Under the pieces are notes generated by a model. It did not search any database. It saw only the letters and a list, made by a program, of their open reading frames with translations, and had not been told where the DNA came from. 43,788 bases of DNA from Draconibacterium sp. (GTDB lineage: Bacteria; Bacteroidota; Bacteroidia; Bacteroidales; Prolixibacteraceae): the NCBI GenBank assembly GCA_011620585.1, contig WOYV01000030.1:1-43788 (forward strand). Reading direction: 5' to 3'. This document shows positions 23,401-32,397 of the stretch, piece by piece; positions within the stretch are counted from its first letter, which is position 1, and each line of letters begins with the position of its first letter. A program made the position numbers and the translations under genes.

Positions 23401-24976
23401 AGGGAAAGTAATTCCGGGGAAAGTGGATATTATCGACGCCAACACTATCGAGTTCACACCGTCAGAAGATGCCAACCAGGCTATGTTAACGGTTACCGGT
23501 AAACGTGGCGACCAATCGTTTGCACGAGACATGCTCGATCTGACCACTCGAATGGTAATCGGGGTACGAACAATTTCATTGAACTATACCAAAAGCGGAA
23601 GTTCGGTACTTCCGGGTTATTTGCCCGAACCTACCTTGTTTGGGGCCGGCAATTATACAAGCGATCCGCAGTGGGGACTGCCAAATGCCGGGAACAATTT
23701 TGCCCCCGGACTGCCCTTCCTGTTCGGATGGCAGGACCGCGATTTTGCAATAAAAGCAGCCGAAAGAGGATGGATAACCATCGACTCGACATTGAACCAG
23801 CCTTTTATGTTCCGTACCAACGAAAGGATAAATCTCCGTGTTTTGTGGGAACCACTTCCCGACCTTCGGATCGATATTACCGGAGAACGCTCGTTCTCGA
23901 CTAACATAACCGAATTTTACGATTACGATTATGCCTCGGGAAGTTTCATGGCCAACAGTTTCTCCGAATCAGGAAATTTCAGTATAACCACGATGACTTT
24001 GAAAACGGCTTTCTTTTCAATTGGGAGAGAAGAAGTAACCAGTTCGGCGGCTTTCGACAAAATGAAGGAATATCGCCAGGTGATTGCACATCGACTCGCA
24101 AATGAGCGCGCCGCAGGTGGAAACTATGATCCGGATTCGCCACACCCAAACTACCCGGGTTATCCCGAAGGTTACGGTCCTAATTCGATTGAAGTACTGG
24201 TGCCGGCATTCCTGGCAGCCTACCAGAACAAAGATCCGAACAAAGTTTCGCTTGGTCTCTTCCCCTCGTTCAAATACATTCGTCCAAACTGGAGCATTCG
24301 CTACGAAGGAATGGTGTCGCGCATTCCGGGCCTGAACAAAGTAATGCGGTCGCTGAACCTGCAACATACCTACCGCTCGAGTTACACGGTAGGTTCGTAC
24401 ATTACCAACCTCAATTACATGGACAGTGGCGATGGTTTTAGTTATATTAAAGATTTGGCAGATAACTTTGTACCTGCCTACGATTTTAATTCGGTGAGCA
24501 TCGTGGAAGCATTTAACCCCTTGATTAATATCGATATTATGTGGATGAGCGACCTGACGACCCGAGGAGAGATCAAACGTGCCCGGAACCTTAATCTTTC
24601 GTTTGCCAACAACCAGCTAACCGAAGTACTGACCAGTGAATACATTTTGGGAGTGGGCTATCGCTTTACGCACATGGACCTCATCATCAAAACCAAGAAT
24701 TCGCAACGCGCTTACTCAAACGACCTGAATATCCGCGCCGATGTTTCATACCGAAAAAGCAAAACCATCCTGCGTCAGCTCGACAGCGACGATAACCAGA
24801 TTACTGCCGGACAAGGTAACTTCACTATTAAAACCTACGCCGACTATCGCTTAAGCGACAAATTCGAAATGAGAGTTTTTTACGACCGTGTTCTGAATGA
24901 TCCGTTTACTTCATTATCGTACCGTACTACCAACTCTAATTTTGGGGTAAGTTTCCGTTTTACCTTGTCGAATTAG
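17498..24976 (+). CDS. sprA: Type IX secretion outer-membrane translocon protein SprA/SOV
   Basis: 2492 residues, near the size of known SprA proteins (about 2400). A signal peptide (YFLLFLIFSLVVPFAGLAQ, cleavage about residue 28) precedes a huge beta-barrel protein that forms the protein-conducting pore of the type IX secretion system in the outer membrane. Recognisable blocks include the early repeat-like segment NRIFGGNTINIQPQGYVEVSF and the plug/lid-type insertions such as GAVYIDDFEATKTPIDM. It ends in a strand-like segment with terminal aromatic residue (NFGVSFRFTLSN). The frame is intact for 7.4 kb. It implies secretion of CTD-bearing cargo, though none of the other por/gld genes lie in this window. 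Confidence 0.96.
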   Translation: MRLDRSLRKIYFLLFLIFSLVVPFAGLAQDLPEMDTTGTLPYPFKDQPAFGYTNQDSLKLFLNRPSNIKYEVEYDPVLGQYVFYEKIGNLNYRLPQSMSLEDYIDYDFDKSVREYWKSRNQLVDQDRRGGMLPKLTIKNESFNRIFGGNTINIQPQGYVEVSFGYQVNKTDNPSIPERLRKVPTFDFNEKIQMNVTGQIGTKMNMRVNYNTEATFDYENKMNLEYTGDEDEILKRIEAGNVSLPLNGSLITGASNLFGVKAEMQFGKLNVTTIFSQHKGESKTVETEGGAQVATFEISAANYDANRHFFLAQYFRDHYNEWLKSTAVPRSPITINKIEVWVTNKSNDFTEARNILAFQDLAEHDPNIYNNITQFQATPGLPYPQNVYPNNSANNLYSEMSTTYNGVRQVENITSIMSQFGQDFVGGTDFEKIEQARKLSPSEYTVNTTLGYISINTALNADEVLAVAYNFTSNGQTFQVGEFSTDGIDAPKTLFLKMLKGTNLSPGKPTWKLMMKNIYNLNAYQLSSEDFELNVVYQNDSTGSYINYLPESRIEGHILLEVMRLDMFNKQLDPSKDGQFDYVEGITVNSNTGRIIFPVVEPFGRHLADSIIDPGYIDKYVFQTLYDSTRVKAEQDAEHNKIKLIGSYKGSSSSEIMLGALNLAQGSVKVTAGGQVLIENVDYTVDYSLGRVKVINQALLEAGTPIQVSTESEDLFTMQRKTLMGTYANYAFSDNFNIGATMLYMHERPLTEKVGYGEDPISNLMYGLDARYNTKSMLLTRALDALPFYSTTTESSIDFEAEFAKLVPGSAKSIKGAVYIDDFEATKTPIDMKARRSWMLASTPQYQSDLFPEGNVNNALDYGANRARLAWYNIDPLFLRNNSLTPDHIKNDRNMQSNHFVREVFEQELFPEKEFTTGEPTNISVLDLAFYPKERGPYNYDAGNSVYTAGVNPDGTLKAPQTRWGGIMREIQTSDFENANIEYIEFWMMDPFVYDTLNQNEGGDLYFNLGDVSEDLLKDSRKSFENGLPTTAEVTNVDTTIWGRVSNQQSLVNAFDNTLTSRQYQDIGFDGLNDDDEKSYFQQYLDELKNKVNDDAYQEAFNDPANDNFHYYRGSDYDQQQLDILSRYKKYNGPEGNSPTAEMSPESYPASATTIPDIEDINGDNTLNEYERYFQYKVSIRKKDMNLGENYITDIKHSKVELKNGTIGEVDWYQFKIPVNTPDKVIGNISDLKSIRFMRMFMREFSDSVIMRFAYLDLVRADWRRYTGDLSDKDAAPSANADFEISAVSIEENGSRSPVNYVLPPGISRVIDPANPQLRQLNEQSIVLKATDLEQGDAKAAYKTLYMDFRRYKTLQMYVHAEEMEGTSLNDDELYFFIRLGSDYNYNYYEYEVPLKITPPWSGIPYNNDRESDRIIVWPEENLLDIPLDLFTNLKLDRNDEIRASGSGMTMQTIYEKSDPDRNNGKNRVKIKGNPNLGNVEVFMMGVRNRRGQVNTGPKSVEVWANELRLTNIDQSGGWAANARMSARLADLGSVTMAGRKRTSGFGSIDQNVNSREMNDVNEFDISAMVDWGKFFPEQAGVRIPMYYGYSKSTINPKYNPLDPDIELKESMSRLDTKQEKDSLKFIAQDVVERKSINFTNVKVEPQRQKEKTHVWDPENFAVTYSYNEIAKRNLNTEYNVDKTHRLMFSYNYSSRSKLVEPLAKVPFLQKGPLKLIGQFNFYPLPTQISYRTDLFRRYHETQPRNITNPQLILPANYEKDFLWNRYLDIRYDMTRSLKFDFSSRATSRIDEPDGRINRRDDDYEWKRDSILTNLWHLGRPTLYGHNFNINYMVPLRTFKALNWVSATVRYSGTYDWIAGPLTDETTNLGNVVSNSRNLSLTGNTNLQSLFNKVSYFKEVDQKFKRTGRGRGSLSQSSGTRNRQQNTQPLERKKEETFSSNLKLKTGTAQKIQHKLNTKKIKVLVTGTEGKVIPGKVDIIDANTIEFTPSEDANQAMLTVTGKRGDQSFARDMLDLTTRMVIGVRTISLNYTKSGSSVLPGYLPEPTLFGAGNYTSDPQWGLPNAGNNFAPGLPFLFGWQDRDFAIKAAERGWITIDSTLNQPFMFRTNERINLRVLWEPLPDLRIDITGERSFSTNITEFYDYDYASGSFMANSFSESGNFSITTMTLKTAFFSIGREEVTSSAAFDKMKEYRQVIAHRLANERAAGGNYDPDSPHPNYPGYPEGYGPNSIEVLVPAFLAAYQNKDPNKVSLGLFPSFKYIRPNWSIRYEGMVSRIPGLNKVMRSLNLQHTYRSSYTVGSYITNLNYMDSGDGFSYIKDLADNFVPAYDFNSVSIVEAFNPLINIDIMWMSDLTTRGEIKRARNLNLSFANNQLTEVLTSEYILGVGYRFTHMDLIIKTKNSQRAYSNDLNIRADVSYRKSKTILRQLDSDDNQITAGQGNFTIKTYADYRLSDKFEMRVFYDRVLNDPFTSLSYRTTNSNFGVSFRFTLSN

Positions 24977-25008: not shown

Positions 25009-25040
25009 TTGAGCTTCTCACTGATTTATTTTGATTTTTG
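25009..25040 (+). promoter_or_regulatory. Candidate promoter of the trp leader
   Basis: TTG (25009-25011), a 21-base spacer, then GATTTTTG (25033-25040), one mismatch from TAnnTTTG. It would give a transcript starting about 30 bases before the first leader peptide. Confidence 0.35.
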
Positions 25041-25079
25041 GAAAAAATGATTTTTCTTGCAGGTGAATTATTTAAAAGA

Positions 25080-25130
25080 ATGAAAAAAATAAATACAATA
25101 TGGCTTCCGTGGTGGGGTCTTCTTACGTAA
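25080..25130 (+). CDS. trpL: Tryptophan leader peptide 1 (16 aa, W...WW)
   Basis: The ORF reads MKKINTIWLPWWGLLT. Three Trp codons in 16 (UGG at 25101, then UGG UGG at 25110-25115) are far above chance and mark it as a leader peptide for ribosome-mediated attenuation. It is followed by a self-complementary segment and an intrinsic terminator (25182-25208). Pairing CAATATGGCT (25096-25105, covering the first Trp codon) with AGCCATATTG (25145-25154) is perfect over 10 bp and forms the 1:2 hairpin. CAGGAG (25133-25138), just after the stop codon, can pair with CTCCTG (25186-25191) as antiterminator. Stalling at WW would free CAGGAG; finishing translation would mask it. Confidence 0.85.
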   Translation: MKKINTIWLPWWGLLT

Positions 25131-25181
25131 GTCAGGAGTTAAAGAGCCATATTGGTATTTTTGAAAGATATTAAATAAAGG

Positions 25182-25208
25182 CCTGCTCCTGTTAAGAGCG
25201 GGTTTTTT
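25182..25208 (+). terminator. Attenuator terminator 1 of the trp operon
   Basis: Stem CCTGCTC/GAGCGGG (7 bp, one T-G wobble) with a 7-base loop, then six T residues. The 5' arm and loop (CTCCTG) are also the partner of CAGGAG after leader 1, so formation is mutually exclusive with antitermination. Confidence 0.8.
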
Positions 25209-25209
25209 A

Positions 25210-25281
25210 ATGACAAAAAACGAGATGAAACAATACAATAATAATTGGTGGTGGCACAACAACTTTTTACAACATTCGTGA
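25210..25281 (+). CDS. Tryptophan leader peptide 2 (23 aa, WWW)
   Basis: The ORF starts one base after the T-run of terminator 1 and encodes MTKNEMKQYNNN, WWW, HNNFLQHS; an internal ATG at 25225 could also start it. Three consecutive UGG codons at 25246-25254 are diagnostic of a Trp leader. TGGCA (25252-25256) can pair with TGCCA (25292-25296). CATTCGTGAA (25273-25282, spanning the stop codon) can pair with TTCACGATG (25325-25333) with one bulged base, which would break terminator 2. A ribosome stalled at WWW leaves that segment free, whereas one at the stop codon covers it. This is a complete second attenuation switch in series with the first. Confidence 0.85.
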   Translation: MTKNEMKQYNNNWWWHNNFLQHS

Positions 25282-25310
25282 AAAGAGAATATGCCATTGG
25301 TAAAAATGGG

Positions 25311-25348
25311 AACGGCTCATCGAATTCACGATGAGCCGTTTCTTTTTT
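25311..25348 (+). terminator. Attenuator terminator 2 of the trp operon
   Basis: A perfect 12-bp stem, AACGGCTCATCG (25311-25322) with its complement at 25329-25340, loop AATTCA, then TCTTTTTT. The loop and 3' arm contain TTCACGATG, complementary to the end of leader peptide 2. trpE begins 37 bases later. Confidence 0.9.
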
Positions 25349-25384
25349 AGGCACTTAACAACATGAAATTAAAAATACACGATA

Positions 25385-26794
25385 ATGGAGAAATTAAATT
25401 TTAAACCGGTAGTTCGAAAAATATTGGCCGACACCGTAACCCCGGTGAGCATTTATCTTCGGCTGCGCACGCTCTATCCGAAGTCAATTCTACTCGAAAG
25501 TTCGGATTACCATGGGAACGAGAACGCTTACTCATTTATCGCTTTTAGTCCGCTGGCCTGTTTTACTGTCAACAACGGCGAAGTAGTAAAAGAAATTCCT
25601 GGCTACGAAAAAGAAAAGTTTCACTTATCAACGGATCGAATTTTACACAACGAACTTGACGCCTTTTTTAAAAGTTTTAATGTGGAAAGCGATCAGATTG
25701 AACTACCGGCAAACGGTTTGTTTGGTTACCTGAGTTTCGATGCTATCCAGCATTTCGAAAACATCCGTTTTACGTCAGAAAAAAAGGAAGAATACCAGAT
25801 TCCCGAAGTGAAATACTGTTTTTATAAATATGTTGTCGCTATTGATCATCACAAAAACCAAATTCATATGGTAGAGAACCTTCGCGAAGGCGAAGATTCA
25901 CAAATCGATTACATCCATCATTTGCTGGTCAATCTGAATTTTACAACGGCAAGTTTTGAAACCACCGGCGACGAGCTCTCAAATATTACCGACGACGAAT
26001 ACAAATACATGGTACGAAAAGGAAAAGAACATTGCTACCGGGGCGATGTATTCCAGATTGTACTGAGCCGCCAGTTCTCACAGGCATTTAAAGGCGACGA
26101 TTTTAATGTTTATCGTGCCCTTCGTTCGATTAATCCTTCGCCTTACCTTTACTTTTTTGACTATGGCGACTACCGCATTTTTGGATCGAGTCCCGAAGCT
26201 GAAATCCGGATCAAAAAGAATAAAGCCTACATCCATCCTATTGCCGGAACTTTTAAGCGCAGCGGAAACGACGAACAAGACCGTGAACTGGCTGAACAAC
26301 TCAGCCTCGATCCTAAAGAAAATGCCGAACACGTGATGCTGGTCGACCTGGCTCGTAACGATCTGAGCCGGAACGCCGATAATGTGATCGTGGAAACCTA
26401 TCGCGAAATACAGTTCTTCTCGCATGTGATCCACCTGGTTTCGCAGGTTTCGGGCGAAATTACCGACAACACCAACCTGGTAAAAGTACTGGGCGAAACT
26501 TTCCCCGCAGGAACACTTTCGGGCGCTCCCAAATACAAGGCCATGGAACTGATCGACCACTACGAAAACCAGAACCGTGGATATTACGGTGGATGTATTG
26601 GCTACCTGGGTTTCGACCGAAGCGTAAACCATGCGATTATGATCCGGTCGTTTTTGAGCCGTAACAACAAATTGTTTTTCCAGGCAGGTGCCGGTGTAGT
26701 TGCCGATTCGCAGGAAGAAAACGAATTGCAGGAAGTGAATAACAAACTGGCTGCGTTAAAAAAGGCAATAGAAATGGCCAGTGGAATTAGTTAA
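25385..26794 (+). CDS. trpE: Anthranilate synthase component I (TrpE)
   Basis: This 469-residue enzyme converts chorismate to anthranilate with ammonia supplied by TrpG, the first committed step to tryptophan. The Trp-feedback motif LLESS is at residues 36-40. The catalytic chorismate-binding region includes GDVFQIVLSRQF, SPSPYLYFFDYG-like sequence, RDLSRN-type segment DLARNDLSRNAD and FPAGTLSGAPK. The length is typical. It is first in trpEGDCFBA, behind two attenuators; the presence of LLES suggests additional allosteric control by tryptophan. Confidence 0.96.
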   Translation: MEKLNFKPVVRKILADTVTPVSIYLRLRTLYPKSILLESSDYHGNENAYSFIAFSPLACFTVNNGEVVKEIPGYEKEKFHLSTDRILHNELDAFFKSFNVESDQIELPANGLFGYLSFDAIQHFENIRFTSEKKEEYQIPEVKYCFYKYVVAIDHHKNQIHMVENLREGEDSQIDYIHHLLVNLNFTTASFETTGDELSNITDDEYKYMVRKGKEHCYRGDVFQIVLSRQFSQAFKGDDFNVYRALRSINPSPYLYFFDYGDYRIFGSSPEAEIRIKKNKAYIHPIAGTFKRSGNDEQDRELAEQLSLDPKENAEHVMLVDLARNDLSRNADNVIVETYREIQFFSHVIHLVSQVSGEITDNTNLVKVLGETFPAGTLSGAPKYKAMELIDHYENQNRGYYGGCIGYLGFDRSVNHAIMIRSFLSRNNKLFFQAGAGVVADSQEENELQEVNNKLAALKKAIEMASGIS

Positions 26795-26826: not shown

Positions 26827-27411
26827 ATGAAAATACTTGTAATAGATAATTACGATTCGTTTACCTACAACCTGGTCCATGCCATAAAAAAGATTTCTGG
26901 CTTTCAGGTGGATGTGTACCGAAACGATGAAATTACGCTTGATGAGATAGAGAAATACGATAAAATTGTTTTATCGCCGGGACCTGGAATTCCGGAAGAA
27001 GCGGGTTTATTGCTCGACATCATTCGTAAATTTGGGCCAAATAAAAGCATATTAGGTGTTTGTTTAGGGCACCAGGCCATTGGCGAAGCTTTTGGTGGCG
27101 AACTCCACAACATGAACCGCGTATTACACGGGATTGCCACTCCGGTACATCTCACACAAAATAAATCGGTGTTATTCGAGGGGCTTCCTGAGTGTTTCGA
27201 TGTAGGCCGTTATCATTCGTGGATTGTAAAAGAAGAAAACCTGCCCGATTGTTTCGAAGTAACAAGCTACGACGACGAAGGCCGGATTATGTCGATGAAA
27301 CACAAGAAATATGATGTTCAGGGAGTTCAATTCCATCCCGAATCGGTGCTAACACCACTTGGTGAGAAAATGATCGAGAATTGGTTATTCCCCGAAGGAA
27401 ATAAAAAATAA
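26827..27411 (+). CDS. trpG: Anthranilate synthase component II, glutamine amidotransferase (TrpG)
   Basis: A 194-residue class I glutamine amidotransferase that feeds ammonia to TrpE. The nucleophile is C79 in GVCLGHQ, with H171 and E173 in VQFHPESV completing the triad. The opening MKILVIDNYDSFTYNLV is family-typical. It is not fused to TrpD. It starts 32 bases after trpE. Such subunits can also serve p-aminobenzoate synthase, but the operon position argues for tryptophan. Confidence 0.95.
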   Translation: MKILVIDNYDSFTYNLVHAIKKISGFQVDVYRNDEITLDEIEKYDKIVLSPGPGIPEEAGLLLDIIRKFGPNKSILGVCLGHQAIGEAFGGELHNMNRVLHGIATPVHLTQNKSVLFEGLPECFDVGRYHSWIVKEENLPDCFEVTSYDDEGRIMSMKHKKYDVQGVQFHPESVLTPLGEKMIENWLFPEGNKK

Positions 27412-27431
27412 GTTTTTTAACGCTGAATACT

Positions 27432-28421
27432 ATGAAAGAAACCTTACAATATTTATTCGAAGGAAACCGGCTAACACGTCAGGAAGCAAAAAACAGTTTA
27501 TTGGAAGTGGGCAAAGGCCTGCATTCCGAAAACGAATTTGCTTCGTTTCTTACCGTATTCAAAATGCGCCCGATTCATTCAGATGAGCTGGCAGGTTTTC
27601 GTGATGCCATGTTCGAACTGAGTACGCATGTCGACTTGTCGGAGTTTGAAGCCATTGATGTAGTGGGTACCGGCGGCGACGGGAAAAACACCTTTAATAT
27701 TTCTACTATTGCGTGTTTTGTGCTGGCAGGAGCGGGTGTAAATGTAACCAAGCACGGCAATTATGCCGTAAGCTCTAATAGCGGATCGTCAAATGTACTG
27801 GAGTATATGGGATACAAATTCAGCAACAACATCGATAAACTTAAGAATGATTTGGAAAAAGGTGGCTTTTGTTTTCTGCATTCACCGCTTTTCCACCCGG
27901 CCATGAAACACATTGCCCCGGTACGCCGTGCGTTGAAGGTGCCAACTTTCTTCAACATCCTGGGACCGATGATCAACCCTTCGGCACCCCAACACCAGTT
28001 GCTTGGAGTTAACAATACCGAAAATTTCGAGCATTACAGGAATATATTTGAAACCCTGAATATTAACTTTGCGATTGTAAACAGTGTCGACGGTTACGAC
28101 GAAATTTCGCTGACTTCGAAAACACGAATTGCCGAACGAGGAAAAGAACTGCTGCTTTCTTCGGCTGATTTTGGTTTCGGGGAGCTGGTTCCAGAAAGCC
28201 TTTACGGAGGAAATTCAGTAGAGGATGCAGCCAAAATTTTCATCGCCGTGTTGGAAGGAAAAGCAACAGCGGCACAAACCAACGTAGTACTTGCAAATTC
28301 GGCGCTGGCGTTGAAACTCATAAATCCACAACAATCGTTAATCGATTGTGTTGAAATTGGCCGGCAGTCGATTGAAAGTGGCAATGCATTGAAAAAGCTA
28401 AAAGCAGTGATCAGCGAATAA
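27432..28421 (+). CDS. trpD: Anthranilate phosphoribosyltransferase (TrpD)
   Basis: 329 residues. It transfers phosphoribose from PRPP to anthranilate. The PRPP-binding glycine loop GTGGDGKNTFNIST is intact, followed by VTKHGNYAVSSNSGSSNVLE, the anthranilate/metal site, where the usual KHGNRA has Tyr for Arg. FHPAMKHIAPVRRALKVPTF and NILGPMINPS are standard blocks. Stand-alone form, 20 bases after trpG. Confidence 0.95.
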   Translation: MKETLQYLFEGNRLTRQEAKNSLLEVGKGLHSENEFASFLTVFKMRPIHSDELAGFRDAMFELSTHVDLSEFEAIDVVGTGGDGKNTFNISTIACFVLAGAGVNVTKHGNYAVSSNSGSSNVLEYMGYKFSNNIDKLKNDLEKGGFCFLHSPLFHPAMKHIAPVRRALKVPTFFNILGPMINPSAPQHQLLGVNNTENFEHYRNIFETLNINFAIVNSVDGYDEISLTSKTRIAERGKELLLSSADFGFGELVPESLYGGNSVEDAAKIFIAVLEGKATAAQTNVVLANSALALKLINPQQSLIDCVEIGRQSIESGNALKKLKAVISE

Positions 28422-28442
28422 TAAAACCTGCAAATTAATTTC

Positions 28443-29237
28443 ATGAACATGACAATACTCGACAAAATTATTGAAGCAAAGAAAGTAGAGATTGCACACC
28501 AGAAACAACTGGTGGAAATGGAAGTTCTGCAAGACGTTTTTGATTTTTACCGCGAGTGCAATTCACTCAAATCAAGCTTAATAAAACCTGGTTCATCGGG
28601 AATTATTGCCGAGTTTAAACAACGTTCACCATCGAAAGGCGACATCAACCTGACAGCCAAAGTTGATGAAGTGACTGAAGCCTATGTAAAAGCAGGCGCC
28701 GCTGGACTTTCAGTTCTTACCGAAAAGAACTTTTTTGGAGGATCACAATCGAACCTGGTAATTGCCCGCGAACACAATCCCAACATTCCAATTCTTCGGA
28801 AAGATTTTATGGTCGACGCTTACCAGATTGTAGAGGCAAAAGCCTACGGCGCCGACGTTATCCTGCTTATTGCGGCATGTTTAAGCAAGGAGCAGGCTGC
28901 CGAACTCACTGCAACTGCCAAGGAATTGGGGCTCGAAGTGCTGATGGAGATTCATAATGCGGAAGAACTGGAGATTGTAAACGACCAGGTCGATATTGTA
29001 GGTGTGAACAACCGAAACCTGAAAACCTTTGAGCTAAACATCGAGACTTCGGTGGAACTGGCCAAACTCATCCCCAAAAAGTTTGTAAAAATCTCGGAGA
29101 GTGGGCTGGCAGGGGCGAGCGAAATCCACTACCTGCAAAAGAATGGTTTTTCGGGTTTCCTTATTGGCGAAACATTTATGAAAACAAGCAATCCGGGAGA
29201 AACTTGCCGGAGGTTTATTGAAGAACTTGGACAATAA
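28443..29237 (+). CDS. trpC: Indole-3-glycerol phosphate synthase (TrpC)
   Basis: 264-residue TIM barrel that closes the indole ring from CdRP. Catalytic blocks are IIAEFKQRSPSKGDI (Glu and Lys), SVLTEKNFFGGS, ILRKDFMVDAYQI (Lys), VNNRNLKTFELN and ISESGLAG. It is not fused to TrpF, which is separate here. The gene lies 21 bases after trpD. A second ATG (MTILDKI) three codons in could also start translation. Confidence 0.95.
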   Translation: MNMTILDKIIEAKKVEIAHQKQLVEMEVLQDVFDFYRECNSLKSSLIKPGSSGIIAEFKQRSPSKGDINLTAKVDEVTEAYVKAGAAGLSVLTEKNFFGGSQSNLVIAREHNPNIPILRKDFMVDAYQIVEAKAYGADVILLIAACLSKEQAAELTATAKELGLEVLMEIHNAEELEIVNDQVDIVGVNNRNLKTFELNIETSVELAKLIPKKFVKISESGLAGASEIHYLQKNGFSGFLIGETFMKTSNPGETCRRFIEELGQ

Positions 29238-29303
29238 AAGAAAGATTTATTCAGCAGAATAATCCCCACAAGTGAATAATTGAAGGAAAAAGAGTAACAG
29301 AAA

Positions 29304-29936
29304 TTGATGAAGAAAAGTCTGATCATAAAAGTCTGCGGAATGAAGTTTGCTCAGAACCGGGAAGAGGTCGAAAAGCTTGGCGTCGACCTGCTGGGCTACA
29401 TTTTTTTCGCGCCATCGGAACGTTTTGTGGGCGATCAACCCGAAACAGGGCTTTTCGATTCAGCAAAACCCAAAGTAGGTGTTTTTGTGGATGAGAACGT
29501 TTTTGAAATTCTCGGACTGGCTAAAAATTTTGATTTTGAATACATTCAGTTACACGGAAAGGAGAATCCACTTACCTGCTCAATCATCCAAAAACAAGGC
29601 TTAAAAGTTATTAAAGCTTTTCCGGTCGACGATCAATTCAATTTTACTTCTACTTTATCTTTTGAGGGGCTGGCCGATTATTTTCTTTTTGATACAAAAA
29701 CCAAACAACATGGTGGATCAGGGAAAAAATTCAACTGGCAGATTCTCGATAGCTATAAGGGAAAAACCCCTTTCTTTTTAAGTGGGGGTATTGAACCTGA
29801 AGATGCTGAAAAGATATTGCAACTCGATCACCCGATGCTGGCCGGAGTTGATCTAAACAGTGGCTTTGAAGACGAACCGGGATTAAAGAATATTAAAAAG
29901 TTGAAGAAATTTATTGAAAAAATACAATCTCTGTGA
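29304..29936 (+). CDS. trpF: Phosphoribosylanthranilate isomerase (TrpF)
   Basis: 210-residue TIM barrel catalysing the Amadori rearrangement PRA to CdRP. The catalytic Cys lies in IKVCGMKF, and the general-acid Asp is in the block VDLNSGFEDEPGLK. GYIFFAPSERFVG and FLSGGIEPED are also standard. The stop codon and last three codons (CAA TCT CTG TGA) belong to a palindromic repeat that fills the trpF-trpB gap, so the natural C-terminus may have been replaced. This should have little effect, since the last helix is complete. Confidence 0.94.
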   Translation: MMKKSLIIKVCGMKFAQNREEVEKLGVDLLGYIFFAPSERFVGDQPETGLFDSAKPKVGVFVDENVFEILGLAKNFDFEYIQLHGKENPLTCSIIQKQGLKVIKAFPVDDQFNFTSTLSFEGLADYFLFDTKTKQHGGSGKKFNWQILDSYKGKTPFFLSGGIEPEDAEKILQLDHPMLAGVDLNSGFEDEPGLKNIKKLKKFIEKIQSL

Positions 29937-30021
29937 TTCTCTGCGAGATCCCTGTTCTCTCTGTGGTTGATTCTATAAAATTAAACCACAAAGAGCACGG
30001 AGAAAACACAGAGTTACACAA
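29928..30021. repeat. Palindromic CTCTGTG/CACAGAG repeat between trpF and trpB
   Basis: Imperfect inverted repeat: TCTCTGTGATTCTCTGCG and TCTCTCTGTGGTTGATT on one side, TTAAACCACAAAGAGCACGG and AGAAAACACAGAG on the other. Elements with CTCTGTGGTT ends are dispersed in many Bacteroidota genomes (memory, not checked). It begins inside the last codons of trpF and contributes its stop. Confidence 0.55.
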
Positions 30022-30038
30022 AGACCAATGCATAAAAC

Positions 30039-31220
30039 ATGAAATATCAAGTTAACGAAAAGGGTTATTACGGAGAGTTTGGCGGAGCATGGATTCCGGA
30101 GATGATGTATACCAACATCGATTTATTAAAGCGCCGCTACCTTGAGATTATAGAAGCAGATGACTTTAAAAAAGAATTCGACCAATTGTTAAAAGATTAT
30201 GTTGGAAGGCCTTCGCCATTATACTATGCCAGCCGTTTGTCGGATCATTACGGAACAAAAATCTATCTAAAACGCGAAGATTTAAACCATACCGGTTCGC
30301 ACAAGATAAATAACACCGTTGGACAGATACTGCTGGCACAAAAACTTGGGAAAACCAGGATTATTGCCGAAACCGGGGCAGGGCAACACGGAGTAGCCAC
30401 AGCCACAGTTTGCGCGTTAAAAGGTTTAAAATGTGTGGTTTATATGGGTGCGCTCGATGTTTCGCGGCAAGCGCCCAACGTAAAAAAAATGAAGATGCTG
30501 GGTGCTGAAGTGGTTCCTGTACAAAGTGGAAACAAAACGTTAAAAGATGCCACCAACGAAGCCTTGCGCGACTGGATCAACAACCCGGTTGATACGCATT
30601 ACATTATCGGTTCGGTGGTGGGGCCGCACCCTTACCCCGATATGGTTGCCCGTTTCCAATCAGTAATCAGTAAGGAAATGAAAAGCCAGTTGTTCGAACA
30701 AACAGGTTCGGAACTGCCTGCCCGGGTACTGGCTTGTGTTGGTGGAGGGAGCAACGCCGCCGGGGCTTTTTATCATTTTCTCGATAACGAGCAGGTAGAA
30801 TTGATTGGGGTGGAAGCCGCGGGGAAAGGCGTAGATACTGATGAAACCGCTGCCACATTAACCGTTGGGTCGCCAGGTGTCTTGCATGCAGCGCGTACCA
30901 TGTTGATGCAAAATGCCGACGGACAGATTACCGAACCGTACTCGATTTCTGCGGGGCTCGATTATCCTGGAATTGGTCCTTTACACGCGCACCTGCATAA
31001 AACAGGTCGTGCAAAATTCCTGTCTGCAAACGATGAAGAAGTGCTGAAAGCCGCACTTTTGCTCACGCAAAAAGAAGGCATTATCCCCGCGCTTGAATCG
31101 GCGCACGCACTTGCCGCACTTGATCAACTCAAAATGAAACCCGACGATGTGAACGTGATTAACCTTTCAGGAAGTGGCAACAAGGACATGGAAACTTACC
31201 TCGATTATTTTGGGTATTAG
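30039..31220 (+). CDS. trpB: Tryptophan synthase beta subunit (TrpB)
   Basis: 393-residue PLP enzyme condensing indole with serine. The PLP lysine is K89 in HTGSHKINN, and the cofactor phosphate loop is GGGSNAAG. Other blocks include [46 protein letters not shown] and [17 protein letters not shown] at the end. This is the canonical TrpB1-type, pairing with TrpA, which is encoded 404 bases downstream after a mobile nuclease cassette. Confidence 0.96.
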
Positions 31221-31228
31221 TTTTCCGC

Positions 31229-31608
31229 TGTCATTTCGAAGGAGGAACGACTGAGAAATCTTTATCATCGAATGAAAGACCATAATTACTTCGTTTATAT
31301 CGTGACCAATAAAAACAGAACAGTATTGTATGTTGGAGTTACCAACGATTTGCAACGCAGAATATTTGAACATGAAAATGGAGTGATCGCTGGCTTTTCG
31401 AAAAAATATAATTGCAAATATTTGCTTTATTACGAGCATTTTCAAAATATAGAAGAAGCAATAGAAAGAGAAAAAGAAATTAAAAATGGCGACGAGAAAA
31501 GAAGAACAATCTAATTAATTCAACAAATCCTGAGTGGATTTTTTTGAATACGCAGATTTACGACTCTTTGTAATGGCAGATTTCTCCTCATTCATCGTCG
31601 AAATGACA
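31229..31608. mobile_element. GIY-YIG cassette with terminal inverted repeats, inserted between trpB and trpA
   Basis: The left end (31229-31261) begins TGTCATTTCGAAGGAGGAA and finishes GAGAAATCT. The right end (31578-31608) is its imperfect inverse, AGATTTCTCC to GTCGAAATGACA. The enclosed gene encodes a GIY-YIG nuclease. There is no transposase, so mobility would depend on the nuclease or be passive. It starts nine bases after the trpB stop. Confidence 0.65.
31272..31573 (+). pseudogene. GIY-YIG endonuclease, C-terminally frameshifted
   Basis: The open frame 31272-31514 gives 80 residues: YFVYIVTNKNRTVLYVGVTN holds the GIY (VYI) and YIG (YVG, 20-22) elements, with the catalytic Arg in LQRRIFEH and Glu in IEEAIEREKEIK. 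After EIKN the frame goes to GDEKRRTI and stops. One frame over, the expected family ending continues: KWRREKKNNLINSTNPEW and so on to a stop at 31571. One A appears lost from an A-run near 31485. The active-site domain remains intact, so the shortened protein might still fold. Either recent decay, polymerase slippage or a read error. Confidence 0.75.
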
Positions 31609-31623
31609 TAAAATTTAAGTGAA

Positions 31624-32397
31624 ATGAACAACAGGATCAATCAACTTTTTAGCCAAAAACAAAACAATATATTATCGGTATATTTTACAGCTGGCTACCC
31701 AAATCTGCACGATACAGTTGAAATAATACAGGAACTCGAAAAGAACGGCGCCGACCTCATCGAAATCGGAATTCCGTTTTCGGACCCGACTGCCGACGGC
31801 CCCACCATTCAGCGAAGTAGCGAAAAAGCGTTACGAAACGGAATGAGCCTTAACCTGCTTTTCGATCAACTGAAAGAAATCCGCCAATCAGTGAATATTC
31901 CATTGATTTTAATGGGCTACATCAATCCCGTTTATCAGTATGGGATCGAACGTTTTTGTAAGAAATGTGCCGAAATAGGCATCGACGGAACCATCCTTCC
32001 CGATCTTCCGCCGGATGAATTTAACGAATTCTATAAACCTTATTTCCAGGAGAATAATCTTCATAATATTTTACTTATTACGCCGCAAACTACCGAGAAC
32101 AGAATTCGGGATATTGATGAAGCCTGCTCGGGTTTCATTTATATGGTTTCGTCGGCATCGACTACCGGCGCCGGCAAAAAAGTAGAAGATTTTCATCGCG
32201 GTTACTTTGAAAAAGTGCAGAACATGCAATTAAAAAATCCGCGTATTATCGGATTTGGGATTTCGGATAAGGCAACGTTTACCAATGCCTGCGAATTTGC
32301 CAGCGGCGCCATTATCGGGAGCGCTTTTGTAAATATATTGAAGGATTCGACTGATTTAAAAAACGACATTGCCAATTTTGTGAAAAGCATTCGGTAA
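31624..32397 (+). CDS. trpA: Tryptophan synthase alpha subunit (TrpA)
   Basis: 257-residue TIM barrel that cleaves indole-3-glycerol phosphate to indole, which is channelled to TrpB. Catalytic residues are E47 in DLIEIGIPFSDP and D58 in TADGPTIQ. YFTAGYPN and MVSSASTTGAGKK (phosphate loop) are standard. It is the last trp gene, separated from trpB by the GIY-YIG element, so operon continuity relies on read-through of that insertion. A hairpin with T-run follows. Confidence 0.96.
   Translation: MNNRINQLFSQKQNNILSVYFTAGYPNLHDTVEIIQELEKNGADLIEIGIPFSDPTADGPTIQRSSEKALRNGMSLNLLFDQLKEIRQSVNIPLILMGYINPVYQYGIERFCKKCAEIGIDGTILPDLPPDEFNEFYKPYFQENNLHNILLITPQTTENRIRDIDEACSGFIYMVSSASTTGAGKKVEDFHRGYFEKVQNMQLKNPRIIGFGISDKATFTNACEFASGAIIGSAFVNILKDSTDLKNDIANFVKSIR

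Follow-up and report, generated by a model that had tools for sequence, protein, structure and literature searches.

The trp leader of Escherichia coli (trpL; RF00513) is a single leader that carries Trp codons and follows the logic of a protective hairpin, an antiterminator, and a terminator; we know of no nucleotide-invariant core in it of the kind described below. The trp operon presented in this study shares with trpL a stop codon placed so that a terminating ribosome would mask the antiterminator strand; however, it is preceded by two leaders, and RF00513 scores only 16.2 bits (cutoff, 41) in the window, i.e., the whole 43,788-nucleotide stretch of Draconibacterium sp. DNA that was analyzed. 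According to its Rfam description, the Bacteroid-trp RNA (RF01692; Weinberg et al. 2010, PMC2864571) is a leader RNA of trp genes in Bacteroidota, and it is a single leader, whereas the window has two. Its likeness to the downstream of these leaders (leader 2) is loose, since the cutoff of 49 bits was reached in none of 13 loci outside the family Prolixibacteraceae and in only 1 of 20 family loci (L168, 49.8 bits; L122 scored 41.9). The single RF01692 match in the window lies at the upstream leader (leader 1) with 33.7 bits, below the cutoff, and no match to leader 2 was listed. At the gathering score, no trp leader family reached its cutoff in the window or in the 13 outside-family loci, and a relaxed Rfam search gave nothing above the cutoff at the conserved RNA element within the leader 1 region (element 1), with RF01692 matching leader 1 of both the window and L118 below its cutoff.

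As described by Lee and Groisman (2012; PMC3641672), the tandem attenuators of Salmonella mgtCBR comprise two short leader ORFs placed serially on a single leader mRNA; each ORF is linked to attenuation, and each responds to a different signal (ATP and Pro-tRNA). mgtCBR is another kind of operon with two signals, whereas the present leaders both contain Trp codons and precede a biosynthetic operon. The trpB motif (RF04312; PMC11109978), assigned to Firmicutes and Fusobacteria, has a hairpin ahead of a terminator, and the 3' shoulder of that hairpin may act as an antiterminator; it was discarded as a candidate for this locus, at which it scored 24.8 bits (cutoff, 59). In searches confined to the open-access literature, no description of tandem Trp leaders was found by title or start of abstract.

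The operon in the window has the order trpE-G-D-C-F-B-A on the forward strand, with trpE at positions 25385 to 26794 (Pfam PF00425 and PF04715) and trpG, trpD, trpC, trpF, trpB, and trpA at 26827 to 32397. TrpE is most similar to that of Maribellus sp. YY47 (88-89% identity), and those of Draconibacterium, Mariniphaga, Tangfeifania, and further Prolixibacteraceae are also close. Between trpB and trpA, an 80-amino-acid ORF (31272-31514) presumably resembles a GIY-YIG nuclease domain protein, as judged from a motif. The upstream neighbor of the trp leader is an SprA-type gene that ends at 24976. A putative promoter on the forward strand (25035 to 25061) consists of a T-rich block and TTTTCTTG at a suitable distance, which we take to be of the Bacteroidota -33/-7 type; similar TTCTTTTG blocks are present in relatives.

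The leader between this putative promoter and trpE probably contains two ribosome-mediated transcription attenuators in series on one trp transcript. Leader peptide 1 (MKKINTIWLPWWGLLT) is encoded at 25080 to 25130 of the forward strand, with Trp codons at 25101, 25110, and 25113 and a TAA stop codon at 25128. On the same strand, the stem P1 is formed by CAATATGGCT (25096 to 25105) and AGCCATATTG (25145 to 25154), and the competing antiterminator 1 pairs CAGGAG (25133 to 25138) with CTCCTG (25186 to 25191), the latter lying within intrinsic terminator 1 (25182 to 25208; hairpin at 25182-25202, followed by T6 at 25203-25208). Leader peptide 2 (ending in NNNWWWHNNFLQHS) is encoded, also on the forward strand, at 25210 to 25281 as the full ORF MTKNEMKQYNNNWWWHNNFLQHS; the ATG at 25225 is its likelier working start because most relatives start approximately 7 to 8 codons before WWW. 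Here, TGGCA (25252-25256) pairs with TGCCA (25292-25296), and antiterminator 2 is formed by CGTGAA (25277 to 25282), which overlaps the leader 2 stop codon, and TTCACG (25325 to 25330), which occupies the loop and 3' arm of intrinsic terminator 2 (25308 to 25349; hairpin at 25308-25343, then a U-tract). A preliminary description of this DNA had proposed two W-rich leader ORFs, each before an intrinsic terminator, and four pairings competing in two switches; both ORFs and terminators are present, and all four pairings were recovered with coordinates right to within 1 to 2 nucleotides. The region from 25060 to 25384 folds with a lower energy than every one of 100 dinucleotide shuffles (z = -5.8). 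Within the family, both ORFs are found repeatedly, whereas ORFs with a W.?W motif arose in only 121 of 9,600 mononucleotide-shuffled 450-nucleotide regions from other loci.

The two leaders differ in their spread. For comparison outside the family, 52 loci (L060 to L111) were reduced to 48 by removing three family members (L065, L098, and L104) and one locus with no upstream DNA (L080), where "outside" means the lack of a leader-sequence match to family genomes and is not based on taxonomy. A W-rich ORF is present in the last 450 nucleotides before trpE in all 48 loci, and exactly one is present in 46. The extra W.?W ORFs of L062 and L100 we read, from sequence rather than annotation, as parts of the upstream gene, and no credible second W-rich leader before trpE was found in the 48 loci. 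Judged from this survey, leader 2 is the ordinary trp leader across Bacteroidota and leader 1 is an addition specific to the family, a division between phylum-wide and family-specific leaders that the preliminary description missed. Leader 2 and terminator could be extracted from 159 of 176 upstream regions, and the other 17 were dropped. In 133 unique pairs, the antiterminator 2 strand paired with its own terminator 2 at -9.71 kcal/mol versus -7.65 kcal/mol when partners were swapped (0 of 1,000 permutations as low), and the 41 outside-family pairs alone gave -10.47 versus -7.84 kcal/mol (0 of 1,000), relatedness among the sequences not being removed in these swap tests. The 5' arm of terminator 2 gave a smaller excess (-7.59 versus -6.94; 0 of 1,000, or 9 of 1,000 outside the family), and part of the antiterminator 2 effect is therefore due to relatedness or composition. 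Across the phylum, leader 2 thus comprises a W-rich ORF, a terminator, and an antiterminator at the stop codon that changes together with the terminator. In stepwise folding, antiterminator 2 was favored only over a few nucleotides of transcript length.

The distribution of the leader 1 region was followed with a covariance model, R1, built from 47 family sequences. It matched 102 of the 140 family genomes, in 16 of the 23 genera; the match in G032 is weak (33 bits) and off the trpE contig and was treated as chance, which leaves 101 genomes in 15 genera, with a single copy per genome at that match strength. In the upstream set, 97 of the 101 copies sit upstream of trpE, and in the remaining genomes (G023, G047, G055, and G097), the element was not seen on a contig with a full trpE match. 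Outside the family, no convincing match was obtained: with drawn samples and strict filters, R1 gave 4 matches in 393 genomes at the order level, namely, three family members and one terminator-like hairpin between convergent genes (G462) that was treated as chance, and 1 in 395 at both the class level and the phylum level, each being the window's own genome. Terminator 1 was called in 79 of the 97 genomes, 17 have neither the leader 1 start nor terminator 1, and G021 belongs to neither group; its start is in frame, and its terminator-like hairpin, in which a base is broken, was not called. The form with both the ORF and terminator 1 is present in 10 of the 15 element-bearing genera.

In these 79 genomes, the arrangement of leader 1 closely follows that expected for ribosome-mediated attenuation. 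All 79 have an in-frame ATG no more than 12 codons from the first TGG, compared with 0 of the 17 that lack terminator 1. The W frame closes 27 to 42 nucleotides past that TGG in every one of the 79 genomes, while the stops of the other frames are scattered. Of the control frames, frame +1 has such an ATG in 0 of 79 and frame +2 in 78 of 79, the latter being the AUG inside P1. This AUG (AAU AUG GCU; position 25100 in the window) is in another frame and the length of the frame downstream of it is not conserved; it is conserved because the P1 stem is. In L163 (G100), this AUG joins element 1 and leader 2 in one fused ORF (MANSWWDPSKEG...NIWWWQ...). Antiterminator 1, searched from 18 nucleotides past the first TGG to 4 nucleotides into the P1 3' strand, starts 16 to 23 nucleotides past the last TGG and -11 to +7 nucleotides from the stop codon in 79 of 79 genomes, the placement that ribosome-mediated attenuation calls for. 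Its strand fits its own terminator 1 better than swapped terminators (-13.0 versus -10.1 kcal/mol, 65 unique pairs, 0 of 2,000 permutations as low), although this comparison, too, includes related sequences. Leader 1 is accordingly a Trp-codon ORF ahead of a trp operon whose terminator and antiterminator change together, with relatedness not removed. The preliminary description made its proposal depend on conservation in relatives, where the two W-rich ORFs and the pairings of both switches are indeed conserved.

Stepwise folding over transcript length yielded antiterminator 1 before terminator 1 when a ribosome was masked at the Trp codons and no antiterminator 1 when it was masked at the leader 1 stop codon (these masks were set 1 nucleotide too far 3', which was judged immaterial). 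By folding and geometry, the antiterminator strand would be free during a stall at the Trp codons and covered by a ribosome at the stop. Without a ribosome, antiterminator 1 still forms transiently (0.71-0.87). At full length, terminator 1 prevails over antiterminator 1 in every state, including that with the stalled ribosome, and the leader 1 switch must therefore be kinetic. When charged tRNA-Trp is scarce, a ribosome would stall at the Trp codons and sequester the 5' side of the protective hairpin, so that the strand at the stop codon could pair with the terminator and RNA polymerase would read on; a ribosome arriving at the stop would cover the antiterminator strand, and the terminator would form. 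The polymerase would have to pass both switches before trpE. The ORFs, the terminators, the matched competing pairings, their geometry and conservation, and the joint absence of the start codon and terminator 1 are features of the DNA itself; from them, we infer the translation of both leaders, the stalling, and the response to Trp, and also that the two stages tighten or grade this response. In the same interpretation, leader 1 would be superimposed on element 1, an RNA with a further, translation-independent role.

Element 1 (25091 to 25169, forward strand; R1 score of 83.2 bits) is a nucleotide-conserved RNA hairpin that consists of P1, a GUGGUGGGG core, P2, and a U-tract. P1 is a 10-bp stem that extends beyond a one-base bulge, where 62 of 80 cells are paired in 16 unique flank pairs and both A-U and U-A are common; the one-base bulge was the best of three offsets tried (31 of 80 without a bulge and 48 of 80 with two bases). 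In seven of eight folded elements, the predicted fold is, by our reading, a three-way junction, with the forms UCC[GUGGUG]GGG in five elements, CC[GUGGUG]GG in G016, and UUC[GUGGUG]GGA in G100 and none in G074. The P1/P2 structure fits the model-fitted alignment A2, which has 76 matches in 74 distinct rows (including the reverse strand of L165), far better than slid structures do. RNAalifold recovered P1 only. The covariation of P1 and P2 on this alignment was not above that of shuffles, 291 of 500 of which reached the observed pairing. The strands of P2 fit each other better than swapped strands (-5.46 versus -4.56 kcal/mol, 54 unique segments, 0 of 2,000), a result that is confounded by relatedness. 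Because column covariation is no better than in shuffles, support for the structure comes from the inverted repeat, the energies, and the alternative found in g23 (see below). Pairing of the core with downstream sequence was also considered and was dropped; the best duplexes (-9.8 to -16.3 kcal/mol) have differing partners.

The 17 genomes without the leader 1 start and terminator 1 (six in g21, four each in g15 and g8, and one each in g2, g7, and g12) nevertheless keep element 1. Among the 16 scored, an ATG, GTG, or TTG within 25 codons was found only in G076 (TTG), and the element ends approximately 16 to 21 nucleotides before leader 2 in the 12 where this distance was measurable. In 12 start-less genomes from g2, g7, g15, and g21, 30 of 30 positions around P1 and the core (11 unique segments) and 17 of 17 positions of the P1 3' strand and U-tract (12 unique) are invariant, 47 positions in all, against a mean identity of 0.60 and 0.65 in the flanks. 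The core is altered in the other five (four g8 and one g12). Conversely, five g23 genomes that lack element 1 retain a W-rich ORF, an antiterminator, and terminator 1 in other nucleotides, and their antiterminator starts 18 to 20 nucleotides past the last W codon and -9 to -1 nucleotides from the stop. One of them, G136 (L131), has only the leader 1 type of attenuator before trpE, and leader 2 appears to be lost. Since the core is kept without the start and terminator and the logic of the ORF is kept without the core, the core probably has a role independent of the translation of its Trp codons, and the conservation of the region cannot be credited to attenuation alone. The proposed leader peptide consequently holds with respect to the geometry of attenuation, but a peptide alone does not explain nucleotide conservation that persists where the Trp codons have no start codon. 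In a TrpE tree of 50 rows, the element-bearing, start-less, and g23 types fall together in a group of 35 (support 89/88, not starred) in which the start-less type occupies three places and the g23 type is nested; the base of this tree does not order the three states. Additional genes lie upstream of leader 2 in some relatives (L220 and L221, which are the same sites as L197 and L198; also L048 and L025): G132 has nucleotidyltransferase and HepT-like genes of the toxin-antitoxin type between terminator 1 and leader 2, G042 has the nucleotidyltransferase there as an open frame but not the HepT-like gene, and L048 and L025 have a similar HepT-like sequence upstream of leader 2.

Several explanations of element 1 compete with that of a leader superimposed on an RNA of additional function. 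It is possible, although we do not favor it, that element 1 serves mainly as a structured sensor or as a binding site for a small molecule, an RNA-binding protein, or a tRNA, on which the W-rich ORF and terminator 1 were overlaid in some lineages. The invariant positions in the 12 start-less, terminator-less genomes would be expected of such a site, as would the conserved loop between P1 and P2, the three-way fold that we read in seven of eight elements, and the codons that flank the first Trp codon, i.e., ATA before it in 74 of 79 genomes and CTT after it in 72 of 79, which make up 12% of Ile codons and 17% of Leu codons, respectively, in 15 trpE genes. On the other hand, no ligand or protein is known to bind it, the internal loop is variable on its 3' side, the five g8 and g12 genomes have a different core, the stems lack covariation above shuffles, and the ORF and antiterminator in the 79 genomes fit attenuation too well for by-products. 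A more specific form of this idea, which we hold only tentatively, is that element 1 is a new structured RNA found in the trp operons of Prolixibacteraceae and capable of sensing Trp status itself, as an aptamer or through a protein or tRNA-Trp, with the Trp-codon attenuator superimposed and a second, conventional attenuator downstream. Within this form only, a T-box-like contact may be envisaged, in which the anticodon loop CTCCAAA of tRNA-Trp and the GC at the end of its gene would allow pairing with UGG and UGGC.

Polymerase pausing provides another account. In the trp leader of E. coli, the 1:2 hairpin is a pause hairpin that synchronizes polymerase with translation, and by analogy P1 and its U-tract could be a pause site or weak terminator of this kind and for that reason be kept in all lineages. 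The U-rich tract after P1 (mostly GUAUUUUU), its pairing past the bulge with the A-rich stretch that precedes P1, and the terminator-like nature of the chance match in G462 are consistent with this account; however, a pause hairpin needs neither an invariant stem nor an invariant core, and in start-less genomes leader 2 is still untranscribed when polymerase is at this U-tract, and we consider the account doubtful. TnaC is a nascent arrest peptide that senses free Trp, and the peptide of leader 1 (IWLPWWGLL) is nearly identical in g1, g6, g11, g16, g22, and most of g2. Nevertheless, an arrest peptide at leader 1 would be very improbable and was rejected as the main explanation, as the codons are approximately as invariant as the residues, other peptides occur with the same architecture in g9 and g17 (IWLWWG) and g23 (e.g., IWSWWQ), G008, G011, and G014 of g2 also depart, and start-less genomes keep the nucleotides of the element. 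It is equally hard to regard the inverted repeat, which is a nearly perfect one of 10 bp and closely follows the likely promoter, as a DNA operator for a repressor, since the spacing of its arms varies (the segment between the core and the P1 3' strand measures 17 to 29 nucleotides); the conserved blocks are also asymmetric, and the P2 strands fit better matched than swapped, with relatedness not removed.

Two attenuators in series, the first of them placed on an RNA element with a role of its own, would add to the textbook trp attenuator a two-stage form maintained in several genera. If the core itself senses Trp or tRNA-Trp, it would represent a kind of tryptophan-responsive RNA that was not found in the literature searched. 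The family offers natural comparisons, i.e., genomes with both stages, with the core but no ORF, with the ORF but no core, and with one leader lost, and the value of the second attenuator and the role of the core are therefore directly testable.
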